Shown here piece by piece: positions 31,220 to 59,710 of a stretch of DNA of 64,000 nucleotides. Each line of letters opens with the position of its first letter. The stretch's first letter is position 1. A program made the position numbers and the translations under genes. The DNA is taken from positions 1-64,000 of IMG/VR virus record IMGVR_UViG_3300005613_002762, one strand, 5' to 3'. Origin of the DNA: a virus. The notes under the pieces are model-generated. The model saw nothing but the letters and a program-made list of their open reading frames with translations. It made no database searches and had not been told where the DNA came from.

Positions 31220-34200
31220 TTATATATTTTCAAATGATGCTCCTGTTGGTGTGATGTAGAACGTGATGTCTATGAATTCAAGAGCTCTTGTAGGTTTGAT
31301 ATAAATCTTACCTGTCAATTGGTTTCTATCTAAATCCTCAGGATCTGATGAAACTGTTACTCTAAAGTCATATAAACCACGGTCTCTTCTAATTGAATCT
31401 AAGATTGGGTTCACCGCATTTAAGAAGTCTTGTCTAACTTGTGCGTCGTTTTGTTCAAACAATAATCTTACAGATACTGCTGAAATCAATTTACGAGCTT
31501 GTAATAACAATCTTCTAACGTTGATTCTATCAAGAGCAGATTCTCTAACTTGTAAAGTTTTATTACCCCAAATTACAGTTCCCACATCTGAGAAAGTCGC
31601 AATTGGGTTAATTCTACCAATATAAAGAATATCTCTATCTTCTTGAGTTAACTTCTTACGAGCTTTAATACAGTTAACAATACCACGAGTGTAACCCGCC
31701 GCCGCGAACCAAGGGAATGCGATGTTATCTGTCAAGGCCAAGTTTCTTGTAACCTCTGCCGTTGGTGGAATATAGATTTGAGTGTTGTTTACACTATCTC
31801 TTGTCAATACCCACGGGTAATAAGTTGCCGTATAGTTAGAGTCAATTCCTGTATTTTCTAAGTTATCAACCGCTTCTGTTGGGTAGATAAACCCGTCAAT
31901 TCCAGTTGTAGTTGGTAAGAATAAATCATAATCAGGTGTTGTTGTAATATACAATGAGTCAGCTCTGTTGAATTCAATCATTTGAACCGCATCTTCCACT
32001 AAGTTACTATTATTAACATAATCAATACCTGGAGTTACAAATACATTAATGTTTGTTGCTTCAGGGTTAGCGAATGTTTGTTGTCCTAATAGATATGCGT
32101 AGTAGTCAGTGTTTGCGTAGTCTTGAGTTCCATCACCTAATGCGATTTCTTTAAATGCTCCCCAACCAACTGCTTGTGGGTATCTTGATGAAGGACAAGC
32201 CCCGTTTAAGAAACCACGTCTACCAATTTGGAATTCATCACCGTTTGTTCTGTATTCTCTATAGATATCCCATCCGTCAAATCCACCTTGAACTAACAAT
32301 GTAAATTTACGAGCAAATATTCTATAATAAGGATCTGTCGGGAACTCAGGTTCTGTTGTAAATGTTGCGTTACCCGCCACGAATCTTGGTTGACCACTTG
32401 TAGAGAACTCAGGTCCGATTGTTAAACCACTTGCGTTTTGATCCATGTGGAAACCAGCAGATCTAAAGTTAAATGGAAGACCGTCAATATCACAAGAGTT
32501 AAGAGGATTTCTTTTTCCATAATATTCAAAGAAGTTTGGATCCCAACCTAATGAGTTAGAAATACCCAAATAAGTTCTTCTTACATTATCTCCCGGACTT
32601 ATTAGTGAGTTATCATTACCTGATGATAAACCGAATGGTGGGTTATAAATCACTTCACCAGGGAAGTCATATTTACCTTTAATAATTGGGAATGGAGAAC
32701 TTGCTCCTGCATAATTTCTAAAGTTAAATCCATTAAATCCACAAGGAAGAGCATCAATCGGAGCGTCTTCAGACATTTCAATCATAACGTAACGAGATCT
32801 TAATTCGTATTCACCATCTAAAGTTCCGATTTTATTTGCGATGTAGTTGTTTTGACCCGGATCCATTGAACAATTTGTAAACTTCTCAATAACCACAGGG
32901 TTAGCATCTGTATCAAAATAGTCACGAATTAACACGTCAAAAGTTAAATTATTATATGTTTGATTAATAATTGAAATTTTAAGTAAAGTATTGGCTCCGT
33001 CACCATCTGATATTGTGTAGAATCTAAATAAGTCATATACTTTATTACCTCTAAGTTCTGACACCACGAAAGGTGATGATGGTGTTTGCCATCTGTCCAA
33101 ATACCAACCAATTGAATCAGGATCTCCACTTTGAGCCGAATCTAACGCGATTAGGTTAGGGTTAAGACCTCTAATGTATCCTTTTCTCCAAGCGAAGTTT
33201 AAGAATGATTGGAAGTTTTCTTCTGCAAATACCGGAACTTCTAATCTTGGTTTTTGGAAGTTTGTAACCCCAAATACTTTTGTCCAATATTCAGCATCGT
33301 TTTGAGTGAATGAAGTTTCAAATGTATAAGGTGTTCCGAATCTATCAACAACATTAACACCAAAAGTCGAGTATGGGTTTTTAAGAACCGCAGAATATTG
33401 ACCAGTCATGTCTAAAGTTACATCAGATGTTCCTGTAACAGAATATCTTGGGTTCTCAGCGTTTGTATAAGTCGCTAAACCTCTTGATCTTAAAGTTCCA
33501 ACAACAACATTATCATAATCAACATATGATGTTCCTGTGTAATAATAAATCTTACCAACAATAGTTCCTGAATAACAATCGATATTGACAGGAGTTGGTG
33601 TTGGTGTTGGTGATGTAAATGGAACAGGAGACACACAAGGAGCCTGTGAAGGAGTTGGTGTCGGTGTTGACGAAGGTGATATTGTTGTCGTTGTTGTAAC
33701 AACAAATGGAGTCAATCCTGATACATATGTGAAGAAAGAGTATCCTGAATAGTTTGTATTTCCTGTATTAGAAAATAACGCATAATACCAAGAGTCATTC
33801 AAAGGAGAACTTAAACTAGTGTCGTCTAAAGAAACTGAAGGAACATCAAATACATTTGTTTCTCCTGTATATCCAGCACCACTTAATGTCAAATAATCAT
33901 TTGTCGCAATTGATCCAAAGTATGCAATTTGTTCATCTTCAGCTGTTGATGGGTTATTTGCGGTTATAATTCCGAAAATCAAATTTTTAATTTGGGCATC
34001 CAATGTTGAAGTGTCCCCATTAAATTCCTCATATTGTTCGTCTAATATAGTTTGAATTTCAGCAGGGAAATCAACAGAATAACCAATTGTCGATGTTGAG
34101 TTTGTACACGCCGTAAACGGAACTGTAAATGATAATTCTTTTGGTGTAACACAAACAGTTTCACATGTTGCGGTTAAAGTTTGTGAACTTAAACACCAAA

Positions 34201-34567
34201 CACCAATAGTTGACGGATCAACGTTAGCGACAGTTGTAACAGACCATGATGGACCTGCATCATATCCTGATAAACCAAGAATTCTAGTTACGAATAACTG
34301 ATTAGATTGTTGAAGGTATGCCTTAGCGATATACGACGCTTCATACTTCGGGATTTGAGTATTTACGAATTTTTCAGGAGATGTTCCCCCGAATACCGTT
34401 TGAAACTCGTCAAAGTTTGTGATAAAAATAGGTTCAAATGCTGGACCTATCAAAGTTTCACCCACAATACCTAATGTTGTTACACCTACACTTTGTGCTA
34501 CAAAGCTTAAGTCAACTTCAGAAGTATATACACCGGGTGAAACAAAAACCTTACTGTTAGTTGCCAT
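31220..34567 (-). CDS. 18: Tail sheath protein gp18-like, with Thr/Pro-rich linker
   Basis: 1115 residues, far longer than T4 gp18 (about 660). The N-terminus (VSPGVYTSEVDLSFVAQSVGVTTLGIVGE) and the C-terminus (RLNVRRLLLQARKLISAVSV and the RQDFLNAVNPILDSIRRDRG helix followed by a beta hairpin) are standard sheath. The extra length lies in the middle. Residues about 288-331 are a Thr/Pro/Ser linker (TTTTTISPSSTPTPTPSQAP) joining the sheath core to an inserted strand-rich region likely to project from the tail surface. The gene is monocistronic between a TATTTAT motif and a terminator, as expected for abundant sheath. The gp18 assignment is firm; the role of the insertion is unknown. Confidence 0.93.
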   Translation of the reverse strand: MATNSKVFVSPGVYTSEVDLSFVAQSVGVTTLGIVGETLIGPAFEPIFITNFDEFQTVFGGTSPEKFVNTQIPKYEASYIAKAYLQQSNQLFVTRILGLSGYDAGPSWSVTTVANVDPSTIGVWCLSSQTLTATCETVCVTPKELSFTVPFTACTNSTSTIGYSVDFPAEIQTILDEQYEEFNGDTSTLDAQIKNLIFGIITANNPSTAEDEQIAYFGSIATNDYLTLSGAGYTGETNVFDVPSVSLDDTSLSSPLNDSWYYALFSNTGNTNYSGYSFFTYVSGLTPFVVTTTTTISPSSTPTPTPSQAPCVSPVPFTSPTPTPTPVNIDCYSGTIVGKIYYYTGTSYVDYDNVVVGTLRSRGLATYTNAENPRYSVTGTSDVTLDMTGQYSAVLKNPYSTFGVNVVDRFGTPYTFETSFTQNDAEYWTKVFGVTNFQKPRLEVPVFAEENFQSFLNFAWRKGYIRGLNPNLIALDSAQSGDPDSIGWYLDRWQTPSSPFVVSELRGNKVYDLFRFYTISDGDGANTLLKISIINQTYNNLTFDVLIRDYFDTDANPVVIEKFTNCSMDPGQNNYIANKIGTLDGEYELRSRYVMIEMSEDAPIDALPCGFNGFNFRNYAGASSPFPIIKGKYDFPGEVIYNPPFGLSSGNDNSLISPGDNVRRTYLGISNSLGWDPNFFEYYGKRNPLNSCDIDGLPFNFRSAGFHMDQNASGLTIGPEFSTSGQPRFVAGNATFTTEPEFPTDPYYRIFARKFTLLVQGGFDGWDIYREYRTNGDEFQIGRRGFLNGACPSSRYPQAVGWGAFKEIALGDGTQDYANTDYYAYLLGQQTFANPEATNINVFVTPGIDYVNNSNLVEDAVQMIEFNRADSLYITTTPDYDLFLPTTTGIDGFIYPTEAVDNLENTGIDSNYTATYYPWVLTRDSVNNTQIYIPPTAEVTRNLALTDNIAFPWFAAAGYTRGIVNCIKARKKLTQEDRDILYIGRINPIATFSDVGTVIWGNKTLQVRESALDRINVRRLLLQARKLISAVSVRLLFEQNDAQVRQDFLNAVNPILDSIRRDRGLYDFRVTVSSDPEDLDRNQLTGKIYIKPTRALEFIDITFYITPTGASFENI

Positions 34568-45255: not shown

Positions 45256-45777
45256 TTATGTTAAACTTTGGGTTGGTGTTGGTGTGTTTGTTGGTGTCGG
45301 TGTAGGTGTTTGACTAAGTTCGGGGTAATTAGTTGGAGTTGGTGTTGGTGTTGGGAATGGAGTCACACAACAATTATAATCTAAGACATAACAATTATCA
45401 TATGGTAAACTATTAGATAAATAACTTTCAACCACATTAATATATAACTTTTCTCGAATTGGTAAGACAAGTGTCCCTGTTTCATTTATAAAAACAAATT
45501 GACCTTCATAACGACCTGGTTTACTTGTGTCTTGAGGTGTAAATCGATAGTAAACATAAAACTCAGGACTTGCGTTTGGATTCATTTCCATTTTCTCAAC
45601 AAAACTTGCTGCTTCGGAATTGATTTTTAAAACTCCCGTTTCTGAATCTATCATTGAAAAAAATATTGATGATGTCTCAATAAAACCCATCATAGATTGA
45701 TAATCAGTTATACCATCTTTTACAACTTGTAATTTTAATAATGGTAAACTTGAATTTTGACCGATTGTAAATTCCAT
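45256..45777 (-). CDS. Virion fibre/decoration protein A with Thr/Pro tail
   Basis: 173 residues. Residues 1-135 form a beta domain shared with the next gene (MEFTIGQNSSLPLLKLQVVKDG, FYVYYRFTPQDTSKPGRYEG, YVLDYNCC). The last about 35 residues are a Thr/Pro repeat (PTPTPTPTNYPELSQ, TPTPTPTNTPTPTQ). A soluble domain followed by a disordered Thr-rich tail suggests a surface protein whose tail might be O-glycosylated. That is inference. A TATTTAT motif is 13 bases upstream. Confidence 0.75.
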   Translation of the reverse strand: MEFTIGQNSSLPLLKLQVVKDGITDYQSMMGFIETSSIFFSMIDSETGVLKINSEAASFVEKMEMNPNASPEFYVYYRFTPQDTSKPGRYEGQFVFINETGTLVLPIREKLYINVVESYLSNSLPYDNCYVLDYNCCVTPFPTPTPTPTNYPELSQTPTPTPTNTPTPTQSLT

Positions 45778-45790
45778 CTATACTTTCTTT

Positions 45791-45797
45791 ATAAATA
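45791..45797 (-). promoter_or_regulatory. TATTTAT start-proximal motif, candidate promoter
   Basis: Sense-strand TATTTAT 13 bases before the 173-residue fibre protein start. Confidence 0.5.
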
Positions 45798-45815
45798 CCT
45801 TAGTTGTGATTTTAG

Positions 45816-46856
45816 TTAGGGACAAACACCACCAACACAATTGTCGTTTCCTCCTGTCACAGAAATATAATTATATGGTTGTGTAAAGGCGGCACAGAAA
45901 GTTTGAGATCCATTAAATGGTAAAGTTATTGCAACACTATTACCATTACAATTCACATATATCGAATTAAACACATTATTTTGTGTTTTAGTATACGTAA
46001 AACATTTACAAGGAAATGAAGTTCCACACTCATGGGAATAAATCACTTGACTATAATTACCAAACAATCCACTATACGCACCAACATACACTACTGTATT
46101 TGGTAAGTAAGGTAATCCATTTCTTTTTAAAACTTTAAACCAACCGCCGTTAGTTGCAAAAGAATATGTATTAAAACTTGGTGATGCCCAAAGAGTTTGA
46201 CCAATTGTTAACGCCGACATTACAGGTGTGTATGCGGTTGCATATTGAGCAGTTTGTGAACATGCGTTATTAACAGCACCCGACCCAAATGACACAACCC
46301 ACTCAGTATAACCTGTTGGTTCAGGACCTAAAGTTGTTGATGTTGTTGTTACGGGTATTGATGTGGTTGATGTTGTAGTTGGTGCTATGGTTGATGTGGT
46401 AGTTGTTGGTATTGGAGGAACTGGTGGTGGTATAGGTTGTGATTTACAACAAGGAAAATCTACAACATAACAACTTTGATATTCATAATCATTTATTATA
46501 AAACTATCCGTTACGTTTACAAATATGTTTTGATTTAATGGTAATGTTAAAATTCCTGTTTCATTTCTAAATAAAAATTGACCTTGATATCTACCAACAC
46601 TTTTTGTGTCTTTTGGTGTGAATTGATAATAAACATAGTATTCAGGTTCTAATGTTGGATCAATTTGTTCTTTTTTCATTACACCAGCAGGTCTTGTAGT
46701 AAATTTTGGAATACCTGTTTCAGTATCAACCATAGAAAAAAATATGTCGGTTTCTTCTAAAAACCGCATAGTTCTATCATAATCACTTCGTCCGTCTTTT
46801 ATGACGTTTATCTTTAATACGGGAAGAGTCGCACCTTTTTTAATGAAAAATTCCAT
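45816..46856 (-). CDS. Virion fibre/decoration protein B, with Thr-rich linker and C-terminal domain
   Basis: 346 residues. The first 137 are a paralogue of the neighbouring protein A (MEFFIKKGATLPVLKINVIKDG, YYVYYQFTPKDTKSVGRYQGQF, YVVDFPCC). A Pro/Thr linker follows (residues about 140-185, TTTTSTIAPTTTSTTSIPVT), then a C-terminal domain of about 150 residues that is Cys-rich (CSQTAQYATAYTP, SHECGTSFPCKCFT, GGNDNCVGGVCP). The C-terminal part probably forms a disulphide-containing beta domain and may be the distal, receptor-facing part; no family is recognised. A TATTTAT motif is 15 bases upstream. Confidence 0.75.
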   Translation of the reverse strand: MEFFIKKGATLPVLKINVIKDGRSDYDRTMRFLEETDIFFSMVDTETGIPKFTTRPAGVMKKEQIDPTLEPEYYVYYQFTPKDTKSVGRYQGQFLFRNETGILTLPLNQNIFVNVTDSFIINDYEYQSCYVVDFPCCKSQPIPPPVPPIPTTTTSTIAPTTTSTTSIPVTTTSTTLGPEPTGYTEWVVSFGSGAVNNACSQTAQYATAYTPVMSALTIGQTLWASPSFNTYSFATNGGWFKVLKRNGLPYLPNTVVYVGAYSGLFGNYSQVIYSHECGTSFPCKCFTYTKTQNNVFNSIYVNCNGNSVAITLPFNGSQTFCAAFTQPYNYISVTGGNDNCVGGVCP

Positions 46857-48581: not shown

Positions 48582-49463
48582 TTAAATACCGTTTAATTCC
48601 TCTAATATTTTATAAAAACTTTTTTCTGTCTTGGTTAATTCTTTTAAATCAACGCCAGGTATATTATCGTCTTCATGCCACCAAATATCAAAAAATAATG
48701 GACTAAACAAATCTTTATTGTTGTAATAAATTAAAGACATAATGTTCTCCTCAAGGTATAAAGTATTTTCATTTTCTAAAACCTCATCAATTTGGTTTAA
48801 CATCATTTTACAATAATCCATTACCAATTCTTTTTTACCACCAAAAAAACCACCAATTATGTGATGGTCAAAACAATACTTATCGTAATAGCTTTGAGGT
48901 AAAGTTTTTGACCAATGATTTCTTCTATTTTCTTTTGCACATAACACAATTTTATTATCTGAAGTTTTTATCAGATTATTTAAAAGATTATTATTAAATA
49001 ATTTAGATTCAAAATACTTTTCCCAATACCCCCTTGTTTGATCTAAAAGTCTTGGTGGAATTAAACCACTATGAGAAAGACCAGCATCAAACCAAAAGAT
49101 ATTTGTTGTTGTGTCGTCAATTTCGTTTAAACACCAATTAAATTTTGAATACTGAATTTCATAACATCTATCTTTAATCACATTTGTTTGTGTTGATTTA
49201 ATTTGTGAAATTCTATTGTGAAATTTATTATCACGTAAATTTGAAACTTTAAATGTAATTTGTGATTCTGAAAAATTATTTTCTTTATAAAAAAAGTTTT
49301 GAAGAATACCTAACTCTTCTTGACTTGTATAACACACAAATTGTGCATCGGTCATTTTTAATAAACTTTTAACCGAGTTTAAATAATGTCCTTGTCTACT
49401 ATCTCTTCCACCAAGATCGGTATTGAACAGGTTTGAATAAATTGCGGTAACAATTTTTATCAT
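48582..49463 (-). CDS. HtrL/YibB-family protein, glycosyltransferase-like
   Basis: 293 residues. Signatures of the HtrL/YibB family are NIFWFDAGLSHSGLIPPRLLD and HIIGGFFGGKKELVMDYC, with the C-terminal DIWWHEDD acidic patch. The family occurs in polysaccharide and LPS loci and is treated as glycosyltransferase-like. It overlaps the upstream GT60-like gene by 4 bases (ATGA), so translation is coupled. It is shorter than the 555-residue relative, lacking the second domain. Confidence 0.75.
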   Translation of the reverse strand: MIKIVTAIYSNLFNTDLGGRDSRQGHYLNSVKSLLKMTDAQFVCYTSQEELGILQNFFYKENNFSESQITFKVSNLRDNKFHNRISQIKSTQTNVIKDRCYEIQYSKFNWCLNEIDDTTTNIFWFDAGLSHSGLIPPRLLDQTRGYWEKYFESKLFNNNLLNNLIKTSDNKIVLCAKENRRNHWSKTLPQSYYDKYCFDHHIIGGFFGGKKELVMDYCKMMLNQIDEVLENENTLYLEENIMSLIYYNNKDLFSPLFFDIWWHEDDNIPGVDLKELTKTEKSFYKILEELNGI

Positions 49464-50704
49464 AAATTACCAACAATTCTATCACACCAATCTTTAGATG
49501 TCGAGTGAGGCCAAATAACCCAATACGACGGAATTTCTTTTGTGTGAAACTCTCTCCACACTTTACCAACACCACTTGGATCTGACTTTAATCTCATAAT
49601 CTCATTTGGATCGGCATCTTGTCTAAACAAAGTATTATTATCTTTATCGTGAAAAGCAACCACCCAAAAATCATAATCAGTTTCAGGAACTCGATTTAAA
49701 TCTAAATCAATACAATGTCTAAAAATTGTTGTAAAAGATTCTTTCCATTCTTCTTCAGTTTTAAACTCATATGTATTTGGTGGATATTTTTTATCTTTTG
49801 TTTCTTGTTGTATACCTCGAGTTTCGAATAATATTCCAGCATATTTTTCATAGTCACGAACCGTTCTTTTTGTTCCGAACCATTCAGAATAATCACCATC
49901 ATAAGTTTCACCATCAACACCAAGTAATTGTCTATTCTTTTTATGACATGCGGTATTTTTTAAATACCAATCCTTATCATCATCCCATTGCTTAACTCGA
50001 CCTTTTCTTGTGTATTCATGCCAAATTAAAACTTTATGTGGGTGAAACAAATCATAACCATGTGTATATGCTCTTACCGTAATTGAAATTTCTTCCCCAT
50101 GAAAATAAAATTCAGGATCGTGTTGAACTTCTTTTGAAAACTCACCCAAAGTAAAACAATAATGTGCCGAATAAAATCTTGCGGGAATTGGTTCGGTCAT
50201 TTCTTTCCATCCTGGTATAACTTCAGGTAAAAAGAAAACAACACCTTCGGGTGTAAATCGATCAAATGTCATACGCCAAGGTTCCGTAACTCTTCCTTCA
50301 GGATCATTTTCAGGATCAAATGAAGAAACATAACCTGTCAATAATGGTTTTTTATGACCTTTCTTTTGGAGTTGTTTAATCATTTTGATCATTTCTTTAT
50401 CCCAATTTTTTTCGAATCTCATATGAGAATCTATTTGAAGGGTATATTTTTCTCCATCATATTGTTGTTGTGTCAAATGTCTTGCCCAACACACACCTTT
50501 TGATTCCTTATAATCTATGTTAATAATTTTAAATCTTGGGTCATTTTCATACTCTGATAAATCATCAAAACCATCTTCAGGATGAAATTGTCTGGCAATT
50601 GATAAAACCAAATTTTCGGGGTTTTTTGCCATTTCCAACATGTTTTTAATTGTTGGGATAAGTTGGGGGTCTCGATAAGACGCTATTTGAACAAATATTT
50701 TCAT
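49460..50704 (-). CDS. GT60-like polypeptide GlcNAc transferase
   Basis: 414 residues. The N-terminal two thirds match the GlcNAc family (GT60, including Skp1-hydroxyproline GlcNAc transferases and mucin-type polypeptide alpha-GlcNAc transferases). Signatures: FVQIASYRDPQLIPTIKNML, GVCWARHLTQQQYDGEKYTL, LQIDSHMRFEKNWD (D92-S-H94, the metal site) and FYFHGEEISITVRAYTHGYD followed by HPHKVLIWHEYTR. In characterised members the acceptor is a protein Thr, Ser or hydroxyproline. C-terminal about 90 residues differ from the family. It is the second gene of the minus-strand glycosyltransferase unit. Family is my pattern call; acceptor is inference. Confidence 0.8.
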   Translation of the reverse strand: MKIFVQIASYRDPQLIPTIKNMLEMAKNPENLVLSIARQFHPEDGFDDLSEYENDPRFKIINIDYKESKGVCWARHLTQQQYDGEKYTLQIDSHMRFEKNWDKEMIKMIKQLQKKGHKKPLLTGYVSSFDPENDPEGRVTEPWRMTFDRFTPEGVVFFLPEVIPGWKEMTEPIPARFYSAHYCFTLGEFSKEVQHDPEFYFHGEEISITVRAYTHGYDLFHPHKVLIWHEYTRKGRVKQWDDDKDWYLKNTACHKKNRQLLGVDGETYDGDYSEWFGTKRTVRDYEKYAGILFETRGIQQETKDKKYPPNTYEFKTEEEWKESFTTIFRHCIDLDLNRVPETDYDFWVVAFHDKDNNTLFRQDADPNEIMRLKSDPSGVGKVWREFHTKEIPSYWVIWPHSTSKDWCDRIVGNL

Positions 50705-50782: not shown

Positions 50783-51721
50783 TCAACTTACAATTTCCAA
50801 AACTTTTAGATAAACTTGTAAAACTGATGGGTGACATTCAAATGATTTTTTATTTTCCAAACAATTAACAAGAGACGGAATACCTTGTATTGATCCCCAC
50901 TCTCTAACTCCATGTTTCATATCAGACGCACAATGTAATCCACACCCACCATTGACATAATGATATTTGTATTGTTGTGAACCATGTCTGTATGGTGATC
51001 TAAACTCAGGATTTATTGAACTTCCTAATTGTATAATTTCACAATCTGTTGTTCCTGCCAAATGTAAAAGACCTGAATCCATTGTTATAAAACAAGAACA
51101 ATTATTTATTAAATACCAAGTTTGATCAAGAGATGTTTGGTTCATTAAGTTATGTCCTAACTTTATTGGAAAATCAAAAACTGGTTTATCAACATTTGAC
51201 CCCCCTAACTCTGATGAATTCTTTCCAATTGAAATTACCGATATTCCTTTTTCATTTAATAGTTGTGTTAACATTTGCCAATTTTTTGCGGACCAAGTTC
51301 TTGAATTCCAATTTTGAACGGGATGTATTAAAACGTATTTATTAGGTAAATGTGGAAGTATCACATCTTCGTTTGGGATATAGTCCAAAGTCATTTCATC
51401 TTTGGTTAACATAAACCCAAGATTAATTGCGTGTAATTGTCTAATGTCCATCACATTATGTTTATTACAAACTCCATTGTCTTTATATGAAACATCAAAC
51501 GTGGAAAGTATCTGATAGTCAGATTTAATTTTATCTAGTAATTCGGAAGTATATTGAAAACTATCTTTTACGTATGGTAGATTTAAAAATATTTCAGAGT
51601 GGTGTGATATAACTGAAACTTGGTTATTATAAGTTTGACTTATTTTTTTAACAACGGGTGTTGCACATATTGTATCACCTAAAGCCCTACAACCTGTAAT
51701 ATCAATACAAATTTCTTTCAC
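50783..51721 (-). CDS. GT9 heptosyltransferase-like glycosyltransferase
   Basis: 312 residues. It has the GT9 layout: RALGDTICATPVVKKI at the N-terminus (nucleotide-sugar site), KYVLIHPVQNWNSRTWSAKNWQMLTQLL in the middle and FITMDSGLLHLAGTTDCEIIQLG (the 'DSG..H.A' motif) near the C-terminus. GT9 enzymes transfer heptose or related sugars to LPS core or other acceptors. The start is GTG, since an in-frame stop precedes it 7 codons upstream and no ATG lies between. It is the first gene of the minus-strand unit and divergent from the triple-fusion gene. Confidence 0.85.
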   Translation of the reverse strand: MKEICIDITGCRALGDTICATPVVKKISQTYNNQVSVISHHSEIFLNLPYVKDSFQYTSELLDKIKSDYQILSTFDVSYKDNGVCNKHNVMDIRQLHAINLGFMLTKDEMTLDYIPNEDVILPHLPNKYVLIHPVQNWNSRTWSAKNWQMLTQLLNEKGISVISIGKNSSELGGSNVDKPVFDFPIKLGHNLMNQTSLDQTWYLINNCSCFITMDSGLLHLAGTTDCEIIQLGSSINPEFRSPYRHGSQQYKYHYVNGGCGLHCASDMKHGVREWGSIQGIPSLVNCLENKKSFECHPSVLQVYLKVLEIVS

Positions 51722-51754: not shown

Positions 51755-54688
51755 ATGAATTATTTTTCTTATATGAAAAAAATTAAATTATTGTATTTGG
51801 TTCCCCATCTTTCAACAGGAGGAATGCCTCAATTTGCATTAAAAAGAATTGAGTCACTTCAAAAATTCAAGGATCAAATAGAAATATTTTTAATTGAATA
51901 CTCGCAATTTAGCACAATATATTTGGTTCAAAGAAATAAGATTTTAGAATTATTAGACGATAATCATTTTTTTTCGTTGGGTGGATTTACCGAAGTTGAA
52001 AAAAAACATAAGTTAATTGATATTCTAAATGAAAATGAAATAGACATCGTTCATATTGAAGAAATTCCAGAAGGGTTTGAAAGTTTTAATAAAATACCAT
52101 TAAACTTATTAAATCAACTTTATGATAATGACAGATCTTGGAAAATAATTGAGTCATGTCATAATGTTTGGTATAATCCTGAAAATAAAAAACTTCACCC
52201 TGACGCATATTCATTTGTCACCCCATATCATTTTGAAACATTTAAATCTGAAAAATCATATAAGAAACTTCATACATATCCATATGAAAATAAAATTGAT
52301 CCGATATTAAAAGAATTAAATATATTTTTAACCGAACACAGAGTTCCGTTACTTAAAAAATTAACAGAAAGAGAAAAGTTAAAAATAGACCTAACTAAAA
52401 CACATATCTTAAATGTTGGGTTATGGACCGAAGGAAAAAATCAAAAAGAGGGTATTGAAGTTGCAAGATTACTTGAAAATAGTCATCCCGATTTACATTT
52501 TCATTTCATTGGAAATCAAGCGGAAAATTTTGAATCTTATTGGAAACCAATTATGGAAAACCTGCCGAGTAATGTTACCGTATGGGGTGAAAGAAGTGAT
52601 GTTGATTCATTTATGATTGCTTGTGATGTTATGATGTTTAATTCGGTTTGGGAATGTAATCCGTTGGTAATTAGAGAATCAATCAATTATGGTATGAAAA
52701 TTATTGCAAGAAACTTTTCACACTATATGGGAATGTTTGATAACTATATCACACCAATAGAAACTAATGATTGTTTAAACATTTCTAATCAACTATTAAA
52801 ACTTATTAGTAGTGATAAAACATATGAAATAGAAAATCAAAAAGATTTTGGAAAAGATCTTTTATCTTTTTACGATGAGGTTTTAAAAATTGAAAAATAC
52901 AATAATAACCCGATTGAAAACGATTATGTTATTAAACAACATTTTGTTGTAAACCCGTTTTTTGAAATATTGGGTCAGGGGGATAGAGAATTTAATATTA
53001 AATTATTTGATGAGAAATCTTTGGTTTATGAAAACAACATTAAAATAAATAGTTGGGTTAAACTCAACCGAGAATATTATACAAAATGGAAAACTGAAGT
53101 TAGAGAAAACAACAATCTTATTTATGAAAATGTTTTAGATCTAAAAGACAAAAGAGTTTATATTTCTTTTGGGTCAAAATCTCTTGGTGATACATTAGCA
53201 TGGATCCCATATTGTGAAGAGTTTAGATTAAAACATAATTGTAAGTTGATAGTTTCAACATTTATGAATTATTTGTTTAAAACACAATACCCCGAAATAG
53301 AGTTTGTTGAACCTGGCGAAGTTGTTTTAAACATTCAGGCACAATATAGATTGGGTTGGTTTTATAATGAAAATGGAGAATTAAACTCCAATATTCATAA
53401 AACAGATATTAAAACACAACCACTTCAAAAAACGGCAACCGATATTCTTGGTTTAGACTATAAAGAAATAAGACCAAATCTTAATTTACCAAATGTAGAA
53501 AAAAAGAAAAAAGTTGGGATCGGTTTTCATTCTACAGCACAAGCAAAATATTGGAACAATAAAAGTGGTTGGCAAGAAGTTGTTGATTACTTAAATAATC
53601 TTGGGTATGAATGTATGATTTACTCAAAAGAAGGTGATGGTTATATGAATAACTTTTACCCAAAAGGAGTTTCAGTTTTTAAAGGTGGAAACTTACAAGA
53701 GGTAATTAATGATCTATCCACTTGTGAATTTTTTGTAGGTCTTGGATCAGGTTTATCTTGGTTGGCTTGGGCTTGTAAACTACCCGTTGTTCTTATATCA
53801 GGGTTTAGTGAAAAATGGGCAGAAACAAAATTAGATACATATAGGGTAATAAATGAAAACGTTTGTCATGGATGTTTTAATTGGGATAGATTAGACGCAG
53901 GAGATTGGAATTGGTGTCCTTTACATAAAGGAACTGATCGTCAATTTGAGTGTTCAAAACAAATAACATCTGAAATGGTGATAAAAGAAATTAATAAAAT
54001 TATGAATAAAGAAGAAAAGTCCATTCAAATTGATGAGGTTACATTTGATTGGGGTAAAAAAAGTGAATGGTATGTGAGTCAAGCAACTCAAGAAATATTT
54101 GAGTATAACATATATGAAAGATTATTTGAAGTAGAAGAAGGTGATGTTGTTGTTGATTTAGGAGCATCATTAGGACCATTTACATATTCAATACTTCCAA
54201 AAAATCCAAAACAATGTTTTGTGGTGGAACCATTATCTTATCACATAGATATTTTAAATAAAAATGTGGGACGAGAAAATGTTAAAATTATTCAAGGGGC
54301 AATTTCAGATAAAAAGAAATTAGAAATCACTTGGGATAATATTACAGAAACTTCACCAACATTTACCTTTAAAGAATTTTTAGATGATAATAACATAAAT
54401 AAAATAGACTTTTTAAAATGTGACTGCGAGGGGGGTGAGTATGATGTGTTTTCTAAAAGTAATATTGAGTTCTTAAAAACAATACCAAAAATTGTTGTTG
54501 AGTTTCATTTAAGAAATGACGAAAACTTTCACCAATGTAAGTTCAGATGGTTTAGAGACAATATTCTAAATATGTTTGAAAACTTTGAAGTGTATTCTAT
54601 TGATGGTGTAAATATAAAGTGGGATCTTTGGAACGAACACTTTATTGAATATTATAACGAAGTTATTTTTTATTTTGATAATAGATAA
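51755..54688 (+). CDS. Triple fusion: GT4 + autotransporter-type O-heptosyltransferase (BAHT) + FkbM methyltransferase
   Basis: 977 residues. The true start may be the second ATG (51773, MKKIKLLYLVPHLSTGGMP), which fits a glycosyltransferase N-terminus better. Domain 1 (about 1-375): GT4-like, VGLWTEGKNQKEGIEVARLL and SVWECNPLVIRESINYG. Domain 2 (about 460-765): heptosyltransferase-like, SFGSKSLGDTLAWIPYCEEF and FFVGLGSGLSWLAWACKLPV, ending in the four-Cys finger C704-x2-C707-x13-C721-x11-C733 (VCHGCFNW, WCPLHKGTD, FECSKQIT) characteristic of TibC-like protein O-heptosyltransferases. Domain 3 (about 795-945): FkbM methyltransferase, VVVDLGASLGPFTYSI and DFLKCDCEGGEYDVF. Adds and may methylate sugars on a protein acceptor. 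Confidence 0.88.
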   Translation: MNYFSYMKKIKLLYLVPHLSTGGMPQFALKRIESLQKFKDQIEIFLIEYSQFSTIYLVQRNKILELLDDNHFFSLGGFTEVEKKHKLIDILNENEIDIVHIEEIPEGFESFNKIPLNLLNQLYDNDRSWKIIESCHNVWYNPENKKLHPDAYSFVTPYHFETFKSEKSYKKLHTYPYENKIDPILKELNIFLTEHRVPLLKKLTEREKLKIDLTKTHILNVGLWTEGKNQKEGIEVARLLENSHPDLHFHFIGNQAENFESYWKPIMENLPSNVTVWGERSDVDSFMIACDVMMFNSVWECNPLVIRESINYGMKIIARNFSHYMGMFDNYITPIETNDCLNISNQLLKLISSDKTYEIENQKDFGKDLLSFYDEVLKIEKYNNNPIENDYVIKQHFVVNPFFEILGQGDREFNIKLFDEKSLVYENNIKINSWVKLNREYYTKWKTEVRENNNLIYENVLDLKDKRVYISFGSKSLGDTLAWIPYCEEFRLKHNCKLIVSTFMNYLFKTQYPEIEFVEPGEVVLNIQAQYRLGWFYNENGELNSNIHKTDIKTQPLQKTATDILGLDYKEIRPNLNLPNVEKKKKVGIGFHSTAQAKYWNNKSGWQEVVDYLNNLGYECMIYSKEGDGYMNNFYPKGVSVFKGGNLQEVINDLSTCEFFVGLGSGLSWLAWACKLPVVLISGFSEKWAETKLDTYRVINENVCHGCFNWDRLDAGDWNWCPLHKGTDRQFECSKQITSEMVIKEINKIMNKEEKSIQIDEVTFDWGKKSEWYVSQATQEIFEYNIYERLFEVEEGDVVVDLGASLGPFTYSILPKNPKQCFVVEPLSYHIDILNKNVGRENVKIIQGAISDKKKLEITWDNITETSPTFTFKEFLDDNNINKIDFLKCDCEGGEYDVFSKSNIEFLKTIPKIVVEFHLRNDENFHQCKFRWFRDNILNMFENFEVYSIDGVNIKWDLWNEHFIEYYNEVIFYFDNR

Positions 54689-55204
54689 TTAACCATTGGC
54701 CGCTTTTATCCATTGACAAGTTAAACTTTCGGCACTATTGGCAACAAGTCCTGACACTATCAAATAAACGTCGGATGTCCAATTTATTGATAATGTACTA
54801 AATCCTCCTGTGTAATTATACGAACCCATGTCATCTCTACCATTGAACGATGTTGAAACAACTTGTGTACCATTTCCTGAACCATCGGCTGTGACAATTG
54901 CAAGTCTTCTGTAATTTTGTGCTGCCCTTGTTGATGTCCCAAAATTAGAAAATGTTGCTAAAAGTGTTGCCCCAACTAAAGAGGATGATGTGTTGTAATA
55001 AAAGTATGTACTACCTTGATACACTCCACCTGATTTTGTTACACAGGTTTCTAATGTTACAATATCGTTTGATGAAAAAGTATTCGCAGGTATTAATATT
55101 GAGTGTATAAGTGTATTGGATAATGAATTTACACTCCCTGTTGGAGTTGTTGTTGTTACAATTTTATACAAATTACCAACATTAAAATTATTAATTTTAG
55201 CCAT
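54689..55204 (-). CDS. Small jelly-roll-like virion protein, paralogue 1
   Basis: 171 residues, all-beta, with a paralogue immediately upstream (173 residues) and another beyond (169 residues). Shared landmarks are IPANTFSSNDIVTLE near residue 38, TADGSGNGTQVV near residue 110 and LSINWTSDVYLIVSG near residue 140. The pattern suggests a trimeric knob or head-decoration fold, but no family is recognised. It ends 1 base after the convergent triple-fusion gene and overlaps the upstream gene by 8 bases. Confidence 0.72.
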   Translation of the reverse strand: MAKINNFNVGNLYKIVTTTTPTGSVNSLSNTLIHSILIPANTFSSNDIVTLETCVTKSGGVYQGSTYFYYNTSSSLVGATLLATFSNFGTSTRAAQNYRRLAIVTADGSGNGTQVVSTSFNGRDDMGSYNYTGGFSTLSINWTSDVYLIVSGLVANSAESLTCQWIKAANG

Positions 55205-55718
55205 TTGTTACTCTCATCCATTGACAGTTTATTGAATCTGAAGCATTTGCGACGTTTCCAGCAATAATAACCCAACTATCAACCGTCCAATTTATTGCTA
55301 ATGATGTGTTAACATAGTTACCTATTCTTAGGTAATCTTGATAAACATTATCGGTGTTTAGATGATTAAAAGTGCCATCACCACTCCCGTCGGCAGTTAC
55401 TATTGACGCTCTTCTTGAAAAAAAAATTGGTGTTGTTGTTGTACCAACAACATTAGTATATTGTAACATTTGTAAGGGTGTCGGTGAAGATATACTATCA
55501 GCACTATTCCAGTAAAGTTTGAAACTAGATAAACCATTACTTCCTGTTTTTTTTATGGCAACTTCTATTTTAATTACATCACCAACCCCAAAGGTGTTCG
55601 CAGGAATGTTTATAGACGCTAATTTTGTTTCTAAAGTTGACGAAGTTGTGGGTTGAGGAGTCGTCAAATTTACCGTTTTAAACGGACTATACATATTATA
55701 TCCTATTATCTGAGTCAT
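55197..55718 (-). CDS. Small jelly-roll-like virion protein, paralogue 2
   Basis: 173 residues, related to its two neighbours: INIPANTFGVGDVIKIE, VTADGSGDGTFNHL and LAINWTVDSWVIIAG align with their counterparts. It overlaps the 93-residue gene upstream by 23 bases and the 171-residue gene downstream by 8. The three paralogues probably sit at equivalent positions on the fibre or head surface and may vary host recognition. That role is inference. Confidence 0.72.
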   Translation of the reverse strand: MTQIIGYNMYSPFKTVNLTTPQPTTSSTLETKLASINIPANTFGVGDVIKIEVAIKKTGSNGLSSFKLYWNSADSISSPTPLQMLQYTNVVGTTTTPIFFSRRASIVTADGSGDGTFNHLNTDNVYQDYLRIGNYVNTSLAINWTVDSWVIIAGNVANASDSINCQWMRVTNG

Positions 55719-55977
55719 TATAACCGTATATGTAATTTACCAAATCGTTTATTGTGTCAAATGTGTTATTATCAATACTAACCTCATTAAGTTTAAAAAA
55801 AATAATGTTTTCGTCTAATTCAATAGATAATTCATAAGGGTTATATGAAAAATAACCTCTAGTTCCTTCTTCATCTACATAAGTGAAAGTAAGTTCTCTT
55901 GGAACATCTAAAAATGAATTTCCTTCAGAACCATTTTTTTTTACTAATGTATTTTTTATTTTTTCTAAATATATCAT
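55696..55977 (-). CDS. Small hypothetical protein
   Basis: 93 residues, with a charged N-terminus (MIYLEKIKNTLVKKNGSEGN) and strands in the middle (ELTFTYVDEEGTRGYFSYNPYEL). No family is recognised. It is sandwiched between the paralogous 169- and 173-residue genes with 1-base spacing and a 23-base overlap, so it is expressed with the fibre operon and may be a chaperone or accessory of the fibre. That is inferred from position. Confidence 0.65.
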   Translation of the reverse strand: MIYLEKIKNTLVKKNGSEGNSFLDVPRELTFTYVDEEGTRGYFSYNPYELSIELDENIIFFKLNEVSIDNNTFDTINDLVNYIYGYNDSDNRI

Positions 55978-55978
55978 A

Positions 55979-56488
55979 TCAGTTTGTAACTTTTAAAAAT
56001 TGTGATCTAACACCTGTCCCTGTACCACTATATCCAGCAATAATAATATAACTATCAACAGTCCAATTTAATACTACACCAGTACTTATTGCGAAAGACG
56101 CCACCGCAAAATCACTATCCAGTGCGTTTCCAACACCATATAATATTGAACCATTACCTGTTCCATTAGCAACTGAAATGGATAATCTTCTATTGTGAAC
56201 TGCGTTAACATTTGCATTTGAATATGTTCTTGTCATTAATTGGACGGGGGTTGTTAAATCATCGGTCTCATTCCAATATAAATATTGAATTAAATTTCCC
56301 GTAGTTAGTCCTGTAAGTCTCAAACGATATTCTATGTGTAATATATCACCGGCAACAAAAGTATTTGCAGGTATAAAAACAGATGTTATCTTCGTATTTA
56401 CTGATGCATTAACATAACTACTCGGAATAGAATTACATATAGAAACTTGTTTATCATTATAAAAATCATAACCGTTAAACTTACTCAT
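55979..56488 (-). CDS. Small jelly-roll-like virion protein, paralogue 3
   Basis: 169 residues. SVFIPANTFVAGDILHIEYRL, SVANGTGNGSILYG and LNWTVDSYIIIAGYSG align with the 171- and 173-residue proteins; overall similarity is modest, so the copies are old. It starts 3 bases after the collagen-like fibre stop, tying this family to the fibre. Confidence 0.72.
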   Translation of the reverse strand: MSKFNGYDFYNDKQVSICNSIPSSYVNASVNTKITSVFIPANTFVAGDILHIEYRLRLTGLTTGNLIQYLYWNETDDLTTPVQLMTRTYSNANVNAVHNRRLSISVANGTGNGSILYGVGNALDSDFAVASFAISTGVVLNWTVDSYIIIAGYSGTGTGVRSQFLKVTN

Positions 56489-56491
56489 ATC

Positions 56492-59400
56492 TTATATTTC
56501 TACCCAACTATTATCAGGACTAAAATAAATTATTTCATTTGTTCCGTCTATACTATAACCAATAATTCTAATAACATCACCACTTGATGATGGTGCGGTA
56601 GTTGTCACTCCACCTGCAGTTGTCGATACGTAAATTATATCACCTGTATTTGTTGTAAATCCTGAATTTCTAATATATCCTCTAACCAACATACCGTCCG
56701 AAGCCGAGGTACCAAGAGCAAATGCTAACATCCCTGTCGATGATGATGTGGCGTTTGCATCTGCAGATGACCAAGAACCCAAGGAGTCCAAGTAATATAA
56801 ATTACCGGCAGTCAATGAACCACCGCCAAAAGTTACAATATCACCATATCCTTCTACAGATGTTGTTAATTCTGTAGTTGGGTTATGTATAAACGAAGTG
56901 TCTCCAGAAACTATTAATTTTCTTGATGGTGTATCAGTTCCAATACCAACATTATCTGTAGAGGCATCAACATAAAATAAATTACTATCAGAACCCCCTT
57001 TTATTTGAAAGTCTGATGTTGTAGTATTGGAATTATTAAATATTGCAATACCTTCGTCCGCAAAAACTGAGTAATTATCACCAGCACCTGCGGCACTAAC
57101 TCTTAAACCATAATTCTCTTTTGCGTCATTTTGTACTAAAATGTTAACACCGTATTTTATTGAGGATAAAGGGTTACTTGTTCCGTAAACATGAAAATAA
57201 CCTCCTGTCTGTGTGTCTCCACCGCCACTATCAACGTTAAAATTGTCAATTTTTATACCATAAGAACTTCCAACATTTCCCGGCAATACCGATTCAAATC
57301 CGATATTAAAGTCACTACCATCAGAAACCGCAGTAGAAATTCCCCAATGATTTTCAGATACACCACCAATCGTAAACTCAGCACCTATTTTATCACCTAA
57401 ATTGTCATCTGAGTTTGCAAAAACATCACCCCTTATTCCGGTTTGTCTTGATGAACCTTTAGTCGTATTATTTAATATTTGAAGTCCGACATTATCACCA
57501 AAAGAGGTATTATTACCAACCAATATGTCAATACCGACATTTATTATTGTTGCGTCATAAGTAGTAACTTTTTGACCTGTTAATTCAATTATCGTTGATT
57601 GATCACCAATCGATTCTATGTTTATGTTTGAATATCCTGTAGTTTGATTAGTTTGCTGAGAACTAACATATAGAGCGTATGTACCACTACCAACAGTATC
57701 TACAATGTTTTGATATCCTGTCACATCAAGTCTATTGGTCGCCGCACCAAAAACTAAATTAGTTTCAGCGACAATACCACCTAAACCATCTGATGTTAAC
57801 ACTTGATTGTTTGATCCCCCTACGGTTGGTGAGACTCCGCTAGTTCCATCAGTACCGCTAGTACCGTTTGTACCACTACTTCCTGAGGTTCCATTTGTAC
57901 CTGACGTACCATTAGTCCCACTTGATCCCGACGTGCCGTTTGTTCCTGAAGTTCCGTCTGTACCGCTAGACCCCGAAGTACCATTAGTCCCTGATGTTCC
58001 ATTAGTTCCGCTAGACCCCGAAGTACCATCAGTCCCAGATGTTCCATTAGTACCACTTGTCCCATTTGTACCTGATGAACCGCTAGTACCATTTGTTCCG
58101 CTACTACCACTAGTTCCATTAGTTCCTGAAGAACCTGAGGTTCCGTCCGTTCCGCTAGTTCCATTTGTACCATCAGTCCCGCTTGAACCATTTGTTCCGT
58201 CTGTCCCACTAGTCCCATCAGTTCCTGAAGTTCCATCCGTACCACTTGAGCCCGATGTTCCATCCGTACCGCTAGAACCATTTGTTCCATTTGTACCTGA
58301 GGTACCATCTGTTCCTGAACTCCCACTAGTACCATTAGTTCCATTTGTTCCATCGGTACCGCTAGTTCCATCTGTACCTGAAGATCCATTCGTACCGTCA
58401 GTTCCTGAACTACCATTAGTACCATCTGTTCCGCTAGTACCGTCTGTCCCCGAAGATCCGTTAGTTCCATCAGTCCCACTTGTTCCATTAGTCCCCGAAG
58501 ATCCGTTTGTACCTGAAGTACCATTAATACCACTAGTACCGTCAGTTCCACTTGAGCCTGATGTACCATTGGTCCCTGAACTTCCATTAGTACCATCAGT
58601 TCCGCTAGTACCATCTGTACCACTTGAGCCATTTGTTCCGTCTGTTCCACTAGTACCATCAGTACCCGAAGTCCCATCAGTTCCGCTAGATCCATTTGTA
58701 CCCGATGTTCCGTCCGTTCCTGAACTACCACTTGAACCATTAGTTCCGTCTGTTCCTGAAGTACCATCAGTACCCGAAGATCCATTTGTTCCGTCTGTTC
58801 CTGAAGTTCCATCTGTACCAGATGTTCCATCAGTACCATTAGTTCCTGAAGTTCCGTTAGTTCCACTTGTTCCATTAGATCCACTAGTACCGCTTGTTCC
58901 ATCTGTTCCTGAACTACCATTAGTTCCGTCTGTTCCGCTAGTCCCGTTTGTACCGCTACTACCACTAGATCCATTTGTTCCACTAGTACCATTAGTCCCT
59001 GATGATCCGTCAGTTCCGCTAGTTCCATCACTACCATTTGTTCCACTTGTTCCTGAACTACCACTCGTCCCTGAACTACCACTTGTTCCTGATGTTCCGT
59101 TTGTTCCTGAACTCCCATCAGTCCCTGATGTTCCATTCGTCCCACTTGAACCTGAAGTTCCGCTACTTCCTGATGACCCATCGGTTCCATTGGTTCCGCT
59201 ACTTCCTGACGACCCATCGGTTCCATTTGTCCCTGATGATCCATTAGTTCCTGACGATCCATTAGTTCCTGATGATCCATTAGTTCCTGATGATCCATTA
59301 GTTCCTGATGACCCACTTGTTCCTGATGACCCACTCGACCCGTTAGTTCCGTTAGTTCCACTCGACCCGTTAGTTCCGTTTGTACCTGATGTTCCATTTG

Positions 59401-59710
59401 TACCACTGGTTCCATTAGTTCCTGACGATCCATTTGTACCACTAGTCCCGTTAGTTCCTGATGTTCCATCAAAACCGTTAGTTCCGCTAGTTCCATTCGT
59501 CCCATCAGTTCCGCTAGTTCCATTAGTCCCTGACGTTCCACTAGGACCTGTCGATCCACTTAATATTGCTTGTAAATCACTCAACGGAGCAAAATAGGAA
59601 GATCCTTGAGGGCTTTGTGATGTATCTCCTGTAACAACGACATGAAAAATGTCATTTAAGGTTACTGCGGATACTTTTTGTCGGTCTGTTAATCTATTGT
59701 ATGTCGGCAT
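56492..59710 (-). CDS. Collagen-like tail fibre
   Basis: 1072 residues. A short N-terminal domain (about residues 1-52, MPTYNRLTDRQKVSAVTLND) is followed by about 190 Gly-X-Y triplets (about residues 52-625) made almost only of Gly, Ser, Thr, Asn and Asp, without Pro in most triplets. This should form a trimeric collagen-like rod. The C-terminal about 440 residues are beta-rich, with DNVGIGTDTPSRKLIVSGDT, typical of fibre and chaperone-linked tips, and a terminal GNLYYLDSLGSWSSADANAT-like domain. It starts the fibre operon, followed by the three paralogues. Thr and Ser in every triplet make it a plausible O-glycosylation target for the phage enzymes nearby. Confidence 0.88.
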   Translation of the reverse strand: MPTYNRLTDRQKVSAVTLNDIFHVVVTGDTSQSPQGSSYFAPLSDLQAILSGSTGPSGTSGTNGTSGTDGTNGTSGTNGFDGTSGTNGTSGTNGSSGTNGTSGTNGTSGTNGTNGSSGTNGTNGSSGSSGTSGSSGTNGSSGTNGSSGTNGSSGTNGSSGTNGTDGSSGSSGTNGTDGSSGSSGTSGSSGTNGTSGTDGSSGTNGTSGTSGSSGTSGSSGTSGTNGSDGTSGTDGSSGTNGTSGTNGSSGSSGTNGTSGTDGTNGSSGTDGTSGTSGSNGTSGTNGTSGTNGTDGTSGTDGTSGTDGTNGSSGTDGTSGTDGTNGSSGSSGTDGTSGTNGSSGTDGTSGTDGTSGTDGTNGSSGTDGTSGTDGTNGSSGTNGTSGSSGTDGTSGINGTSGTNGSSGTNGTSGTDGTNGSSGTDGTSGTDGTNGSSGTDGTNGSSGTDGTSGTDGTNGTNGTSGSSGTDGTSGTNGTNGSSGTDGTSGSSGTDGTSGTDGTSGTDGTNGSSGTDGTNGTSGTDGTSGSSGTNGTSGSSGTNGTSGSSGTNGTSGTNGTSGTDGTSGSSGTNGTSGTNGTSGSSGTDGTSGTNGTSGSSGTNGTSGTNGTSGSSGTNGTSGTDGTSGVSPTVGGSNNQVLTSDGLGGIVAETNLVFGAATNRLDVTGYQNIVDTVGSGTYALYVSSQQTNQTTGYSNINIESIGDQSTIIELTGQKVTTYDATIINVGIDILVGNNTSFGDNVGLQILNNTTKGSSRQTGIRGDVFANSDDNLGDKIGAEFTIGGVSENHWGISTAVSDGSDFNIGFESVLPGNVGSSYGIKIDNFNVDSGGGDTQTGGYFHVYGTSNPLSSIKYGVNILVQNDAKENYGLRVSAAGAGDNYSVFADEGIAIFNNSNTTTSDFQIKGGSDSNLFYVDASTDNVGIGTDTPSRKLIVSGDTSFIHNPTTELTTSVEGYGDIVTFGGGSLTAGNLYYLDSLGSWSSADANATSSSTGMLAFALGTSASDGMLVRGYIRNSGFTTNTGDIIYVSTTAGGVTTTAPSSSGDVIRIIGYSIDGTNEIIYFSPDNSWVEI
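57838..59558 (-). repeat. Collagen-like Gly-X-Y repeat region
   Basis: About 190 tandem triplets built from GTS, GTN, GTD and GSS in varied order. Synonymous codons differ between copies, so this is a protein-level repeat with degenerate 9-bp DNA periodicity. Its reverse strand produces a long false open frame (57807-59597) of Pro-Val-Pro type. Length could vary by recombination. Confidence 0.9.

Follow-up and report, generated by a model that had tools for sequence, protein, structure and literature searches.

The DNA analysed here, a 64,000-nucleotide window at the start of a virus record of 149,190 bases (IMGVR_UViG_3300005613_002762) from a large water phage, encodes a 977-residue protein in which a GT4 glycosyltransferase, a TibC-like glycosyltransferase and an FkbM methyltransferase are joined in one polypeptide. 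We propose, with a probability of roughly 0.7 and from comparison of sequences, that this fusion acts in the cytoplasm and builds, by itself, a glycan for the collagen-like fibre of the same phage, encoded at 56492-59710. Its middle domain has the predicted fold, the cysteine finger and the catalytic residues of a TibC-like protein O-glycosyltransferase, and we propose that the phage domains of this kind, together with relatives in methanotrophic bacteria, make up a subfamily of collagen-repeat O-glycosyltransferases that stands apart from the autotransporter enzymes. The fusion gene and its parts are as follows.

51755..54688, plus strand: triple-fusion gene, GT4, TibC-like and FkbM; 977 amino acids, intact open reading frame (Pfam and NCBIfam)
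51755..52894, plus strand: GT4 domain, residues 1-380 (PF00534, E-x7-E motif, Foldseek matches to PimB' and BshA)
52925..53134, plus strand: beta domain at the N-terminus of the TibC-like unit, residues 391-460; modelled with seven strands and occupying the position of the beta-barrel in TibC (PMC4358343)
52940..54010, plus strand: TibC/AAH-like catalytic unit, residues 396-752 (TIGR04414, match to TibC in the PDB, model TM 0.84)
53189..53191, plus strand: Asp479, counterpart of the TibC catalytic base Asp110 (alignment to TibC)
53702..53704, plus strand: Val650, in place of TibC Arg286, an adenine contact (alignment to TibC)
53864..53953, plus strand: four-cysteine finger C704-x2-C707-x13-C721-x11-C733, present in all 90 aligned domains
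54035..54688, plus strand: FkbM methyltransferase domain, residues 761-977 (TIGR01444, PF05050)

Each of the three parts is recognised by family models. The GT4 domain matches PF00534 over residues 204-358 (E 2e-14, 53.8 bits against a Pfam cut-off of 26.4) and carries its E-x7-E motif as E300-E308, while the C-terminal part matches TIGR01444 over residues 798-918 (E 9.5e-14, 52.1 bits against an NCBIfam cut-off of 37.7) as well as PF05050 (41.9 bits against a Pfam cut-off of 22.7). Between them, residues 411-749 match TIGR04414 at E 2.7e-84 and 283 bits, above the curated NCBIfam cut-off of 200, and no PDB entry matches the sequence better than TibC (4rap, E 1.5e-64, 40% identity across 324 aligned residues). 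The TibC residues Asp110, Thr226, Lys230 and Trp305, whose roles are described along with those of the four iron-finger cysteines (PMC4358343), are all kept, as Asp479, Thr594, Lys598 and Trp669, and the finger cysteines Cys339, Cys342, Cys358 and Cys370 correspond to Cys704, Cys707, Cys721 and Cys733. An AlphaFold2 model built from a natural alignment has a mean predicted local distance difference test (pLDDT) score of 84; a Foldseek search with it returned TibC as the top 21 matches, with 4rap and 4rb4 best in the PDB (E 2e-33, template modelling (TM) score on the target 0.84), followed by GT4 enzymes. With a predicted TM score (pTM) of 0.51, the model is no reliable guide to how the domains are arranged. 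An initial annotation of this DNA, made from the sequence, had described a TibC-like middle domain with a four-cysteine finger, fused to GT4 and FkbM domains in a phage and lying beside fibre genes, and all of this is borne out by the family matches, the model and the fibre at 56492-59710; the middle domain is of the GT-B type. Most homologues begin at the counterpart of Met7, which makes position 51773, six codons past the annotated 51755, the likely true start. DNA glucosylation was set aside as a function, since the TibC family acts on proteins.

The whole fusion recurs in about 14 distinct viral contigs of IMG/VR at 58-78% identity and is therefore neither a chance event nor an assembly artefact; none of the 14 aligned fusions deviates at Asp479, Lys598, Trp669 or the four cysteines. 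Annotated phage records hold no example of the fusion, the nearest being Microcystis phage Mel-JY01 (48% identity over the TibC-like part) and uncultured phages of 636-735 kb. The order GT4, TibC-like, FkbM is that of most close relatives, and other arrangements also occur: GT4-TibC-like proteins with a separate, mostly overlapping FkbM gene (L034-L058), a separate GT4 with a TibC-like-FkbM protein (L022), and a single protein of the form GT9-x-GT4-TibC-like (L028), whose GT9 part is homologous to the window gene at 50783-51721. Three loci (L034, L051, L058) carry a second TibC-like gene in tandem. Such varied fusions and splits of GT9, GT4, TibC-like and FkbM parts argue for one common pathway. 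A closer copy (L007/L008, 87% identity) is C-terminally truncated: in L007, the nearest relative, an in-frame stop truncates the FkbM part, and the second copy stops after the TibC-like domain. This, along with the existence of two-domain forms, shows the FkbM domain to be non-essential, an optional decoration.

A maximum-likelihood tree of 90 TibC-like domains divides them into 46 classical members and 44 others, of which 33 come from phages and 11 from bacterial records, with a support of 100/100 for the split; the window domain falls outside the classical clade. Two of the 11 (L088, L089) are, judging from their neighbours, probably phage contigs in bins of metagenome-assembled genomes (MAGs). 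The side chain of Arg286 in TibC contacts adenine and is conserved in the family, and the R286A substitution abolished or largely diminished activity (PMC4358343). The classical domains keep Arg at this position without exception (46/46), against Val, Ile, Leu, Met, Ser, Thr or Ala in 43/44 members of the new branch, where the one exception is L032, a domain on a long and poorly placed branch. Other positions switch nearly completely between the two branches: Asp256 to Ser/Thr, Cys254 to Ile/Leu, Gln224 to His and Thr278 to other residues, with Glu275 changing as well; the window domain has Val for Arg286 and Ser for Asp256. The simplest inference from the loss of Arg286 and the linked switches is a remodelled nucleotide pocket, possibly for another donor, and the sugar thus need not be heptose. 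TIGR04414 scores range from 655 bits for a classical protein to 307-314 for methanotroph proteins and 283 for the window domain.

The two branches also differ in their surroundings. Classical enzymes act on a strand-loop-strand repeat (TIGR04415), which was found in all ten classical-branch genomes tested. The repeat has no match in the 149-kb record, possibly incomplete, even at E 10, is above the cut-off in 0/30 viral records, and is present in 0/9 of the genomes or MAGs that hold the nearest cellular relatives of the window domain. These relatives, 43-49% identical to it, are single-domain proteins of Methylobacter, Methylomicrobium, other Methylococcaceae and a Polaromonas MAG. In nine of the ten distinct methanotroph or Polaromonas loci, the enzyme adjoins a small Gly-Thr-Ser collagen-like protein with a signal peptide recognised by eye, the gene lying upstream on the same strand in L090, L091, L094, L096, L170 and L171 and in opposite orientation in L093, L095 and L172; in Methylobacter luteus this neighbour is the sole Pfam collagen match in 5 Mb. 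Within the same bacterial order, classical TibC-like genes (L174, L175) adjoin proteins that resemble strand-loop-strand repeats by eye. Overall, a gene with a collagen run lies within two genes of the enzyme in 9/12 new-branch records (L088 and L089 included) versus 1/75 classical ones (Fisher 4e-9, an indicative value since the loci are related). The NCBIfam equivalog TIGR04414 gives methanotroph and Polaromonas proteins (for instance L090, L093 and L096) the name autotransporter strand-loop-strand O-heptosyltransferase, although the repeat is absent from their genomes; for the methanotroph proteins the name is probably wrong. Nor is the fusion a plain autotransporter heptosyltransferase, as it departs from two defining features, Arg286 and the acceptor repeat. 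Where the initial annotation called it a protein O-heptosyltransferase, protein remains the best reading of the target, but the heptosyl part is doubtful for an enzyme outside the classical BAHT branch in which Arg286 and Asp256 are replaced. The comparative evidence likewise points to the collagen-like repeat that it had listed among candidate acceptors.

In the window, the proposed acceptor is a single large fibre.

56492..59710, minus strand: collagen-like fibre, 1072 amino acids (PHROG tail fibre matches)

It lies 1.8 kb from the fusion gene, is the sole collagen-run gene in the 149 kb record, and contains 192 Gly-X-Y triplets in which X is Thr (74%) or Ser (24%) and Y is Ser, Asn or Asp. 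Related phages repeat the pairing: in L002, L005, L007, L010, L011 and L025, at most about 150 bp separate the enzyme from a Gly-(Thr/Ser)-X gene. Across nine whole viral contigs, the enzyme is closer to a collagen run than other genes are (combined p 6e-6), with one contig, G013, showing the opposite trend. In contig G005, two GT4-TibC-like genes 70 kb apart lie 136 and 117 bp from the contig's only two collagen-run genes. In Mel-JY01, an open 1016-residue frame with 149 Gly-X-Y triplets lies two genes from the TibC-like protein, and a 735-kb phage likewise has a collagen-run gene two genes from its TibC-like gene. Phage and bacterial repeats resemble each other: most phage genes next to the enzyme have Thr or Ser at X in >85% of the triplets and Ser, Asn or Asp at Y, and proline is almost lacking. 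Phage fibres reach about 980 triplets. As a separate observation, the Mel-JY01 frame (PP395634, L258 1-3052) is overlapped by deposited coding sequences on the opposite strand (1-651 and 739-2298), and the fibre gene was seemingly missed.

Given these collagen-like neighbours, we infer the acceptor, the donor, the order of steps, a glycan on the virion and its biological role as follows. In the infected cell, and before assembly, the TibC-like domain would use a nucleotide sugar to attach a first sugar to Ser/Thr hydroxyls in the fibre's Gly-(Thr/Ser)-(Ser/Asn/Asp) repeats, relying on the TibC fold, the base Asp479 and the cysteine finger. The fused GT4 domain would then extend this sugar and the FkbM domain would O-methylate the glycan, the natural acceptor being a proline-poor Gly-Thr-Ser collagen-like repeat. 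The glycan may stabilise collagen that lacks proline, shield the fibre or act in adsorption. A fuller version of this proposal, to which we give somewhat under an even chance, is that a second class of TIGR04414 enzymes in phages and methanotrophs places a sugar other than that of adenosine diphosphate (ADP)-heptose on proline-free Gly-Thr-Ser collagen-like repeats, where the glycan would take over from hydroxyproline and stabilise or shield the triple helix in phage fibres of great length, and that one three-domain polypeptide makes this glycan with its methyl cap.

The region around the fusion gene holds further genes that bear on these proposals.

54689..56488, minus strand: three paralogous beta-rich proteins of about 170 amino acids and one small open reading frame, between the fusion and the fibre
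50783..51721, minus strand: GT9 glycosyltransferase, divergently transcribed neighbour (PF01075, E 1e-15)
49460..50704, minus strand: PF11397 protein (N-acetylglucosamine (GlcNAc) transferase, GT60-like), a recurrent neighbour (E 2.6e-72, phrog_24687)

The PF11397 gene stands beside the fusion in seven of 16 distinct loci. A known member of the GT60-like GlcNAc transferases acts on hydroxyproline in protein, and the gene at 49460-50704 is possibly a further protein-acting enzyme of the cluster. The three beta-rich paralogues are 29-37% identical among themselves, and the one that was scanned has no Pfam or PHROG match; they are possibly fibre tips, perhaps alternative ones, or alternative acceptors. 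Also within the glycosyltransferase cluster, the product of 46885-48552 matches HtrL_YibB (PF09612) at E 6e-17, below the NCBIfam equivalog cut-off, and that of 48582-49463 has no match in Pfam, NCBIfam or PHROG. Long Thr/Pro linkers occur in two paralogous proteins (45256-46856) and in a sheath-like protein (31220-34567), and are possible extra glycosylation sites. Read by eye, the encoded proteins include a ribonucleotide reductase and UvsX-like, gp32-like and tail sheath proteins, which we take to be products of T4-like replication and structural genes.

Several observations weigh against the fibre as the substrate. TibC modifies Ser and not Thr, and Thr dominates in the repeats of the window fibre. 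The contrast between new and classical domains comes down to one branch of the tree, and the phage contigs are related, so their statistics are not independent. Some relatives (L013, L021, L053, L058) have only a more distant collagen-run gene of the Gly-Ala/Pro-Gln type, L022 and L063 have no collagen-run gene nearby, and none was found in L092. The finger, for which the initial annotation had suggested structure prediction as a check, is modelled at a low pLDDT of 54-67. Lastly, fibre genes and glycosyltransferases cluster in the host-recognition regions of phages anyway. This last point opens the possibility that proximity to collagen genes is a by-product, both being cargo of variable fibre regions, and phage neighbourhoods are indeed variable and rich in glycosyltransferases. 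We consider this improbable given that the pairing is also found in methanotroph chromosomes and in Polaromonas, with differing gene order and orientation, and that one phage carries two enzyme-collagen pairs 70 kb apart.

The bacterial pairs bear equally on the view that the enzyme modifies a host surface polysaccharide, such as lipopolysaccharide (LPS), O-antigen or capsule, and so blocks superinfection. Glycosyltransferase clusters of large phages are usually read in this way (PMC7029224, PMC7824862), and the GT9 neighbours, which resemble LPS heptosyltransferases, as well as the nucleotide-sugar enzymes and additional glycosyltransferase-like genes at 77-88 kb, would suit it. It is nevertheless an unlikely account of a middle domain that belongs to the protein-acting TibC family, scoring 283 bits there against about 19 or less for LPS heptosyltransferase models, and whose bacterial relatives are paired with a secreted collagen-like protein outside any phage fibre cluster that could account for the proximity. 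If the target is a virion protein, it could still be one other than the fibre, namely the three beta-rich proteins or the Thr/Pro linkers of 45256-46856 and of the sheath-like 31220-34567, all of which are close by and Ser/Thr-rich; one relative (L033) even retains counterparts of the four small genes of 54689-56488 in the same order. Of 16 distinct homologues, however, just one has the small proteins beside it, while collagen-like genes turn up repeatedly in both phages and bacteria, and we regard these other acceptors as rather implausible.

The donor is a separate matter, as the collagen-like fibre is compatible with more than one sugar. That the TibC-like domain works with ADP-heptose as TibC does, the loss of Arg286 being tolerated, is possible but doubtful. 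The counterparts of Asp110, Thr226, Lys230 and Trp305 are kept, and the record encodes a nucleotidyltransferase resembling RfaE domain II, with homologues in five other related contigs. This protein scores 74.6 bits, far below the cut-off of 181.5, and is nearly as close to glycerol-3-phosphate cytidylyltransferase; in the enzyme itself, 43 of the 44 members have another residue in place of Arg286, whose substitution (R286A) left TibC with little or no activity (PMC4358343), and Asp256, Cys254, Gln224, Glu275 and Thr278 change along with it. An ADP-heptose pathway was set aside as proof of the donor, the weak RfaE-domain-II-like protein and a generic nicotinamide adenine dinucleotide (NAD)-dependent epimerase/dehydratase not being decisive. 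Both are encoded at record positions 78582-85804, with a nucleoside diphosphate (NDP)-sugar dehydrogenase, an NAD synthase-like protein, a GT11-like protein and an FkbM protein. From the FkbM, nucleotide-sugar dehydrogenase, epimerase/dehydratase and nucleotidyltransferase genes at 78-85 kb, the phage may supply its own donors, and none of these genes identifies the sugar.

If glycosylation of the fibre is correct, it would supply part of the glycosyltransferase clusters of large phages, usually ascribed to modification of the host surface, with an acceptor and a mechanism, and would explain how proline-free collagen-like repeats might be stable in virions. Prokaryotic collagen, which is of biotechnological interest as a material, would also gain a protein O-glycosylation system. 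Since both Mel-JY01 and Methylobacter luteus are cultured, the collagen-glycosylation reading is directly testable. A literature search found no open-access paper on TibC-like enzymes with collagen, on the new branch or on Mel-JY01.

Among known systems, the glycosylating enzymes of Bacillus BclA, C. difficile BclA3 and mimivirus collagen are not known to be TibC-like, and mimivirus collagen is modified on hydroxylysine. Sugars on prokaryotic or viral collagen-like repeats are documented for each of these three, in C. difficile with SgtA (PMC8968730, PMC7157674). Phage-encoded glycosylation of virion proteins occurs in mycobacteriophages, according to work cited in PMC12619734, at the C-termini of capsid and tail-tube proteins and not on collagen-like fibres. 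The closest characterised enzymes are TibC, a bacterial enzyme that glycosylates adhesins, and AAH (TIGR04414; 4rap, 4rb4), with which the fusion shares the fold, the beta domain, the catalytic Asp, the Thr, Lys and Trp donor residues, the four-cysteine finger and a gene that adjoins a repetitive surface protein. Unlike them, it belongs to a separate branch, has Arg286 and neighbouring pocket residues replaced, lacks a strand-loop-strand acceptor, is fused to GT4 and FkbM domains and is found in a phage; the traits of the BAHT family further include heptose transfer to Ser of the partner and a dodecameric state. The fusion thus resembles TibC in fold and presumably in chemistry. It is similar also to Mel-JY01 WWT39291.1, a cultured phage's protein with a GT4-like N-terminus, a TibC-like domain (48% identity) and a long Gly-X-Y gene nearby, which differs in that its TibC-like domain is C-terminal in 1226 amino acids, with other sequence between, and in having been deposited as methyltransferase FkbM. 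Methylobacter and other methanotrophs have single-domain TIGR04414 proteins (for example L090 and L096) that share with the fusion 43-49% identity, the branch, the loss of Arg286 and the collagen-like neighbour, but are cellular and unfused, with a small secreted protein as their probable acceptor.

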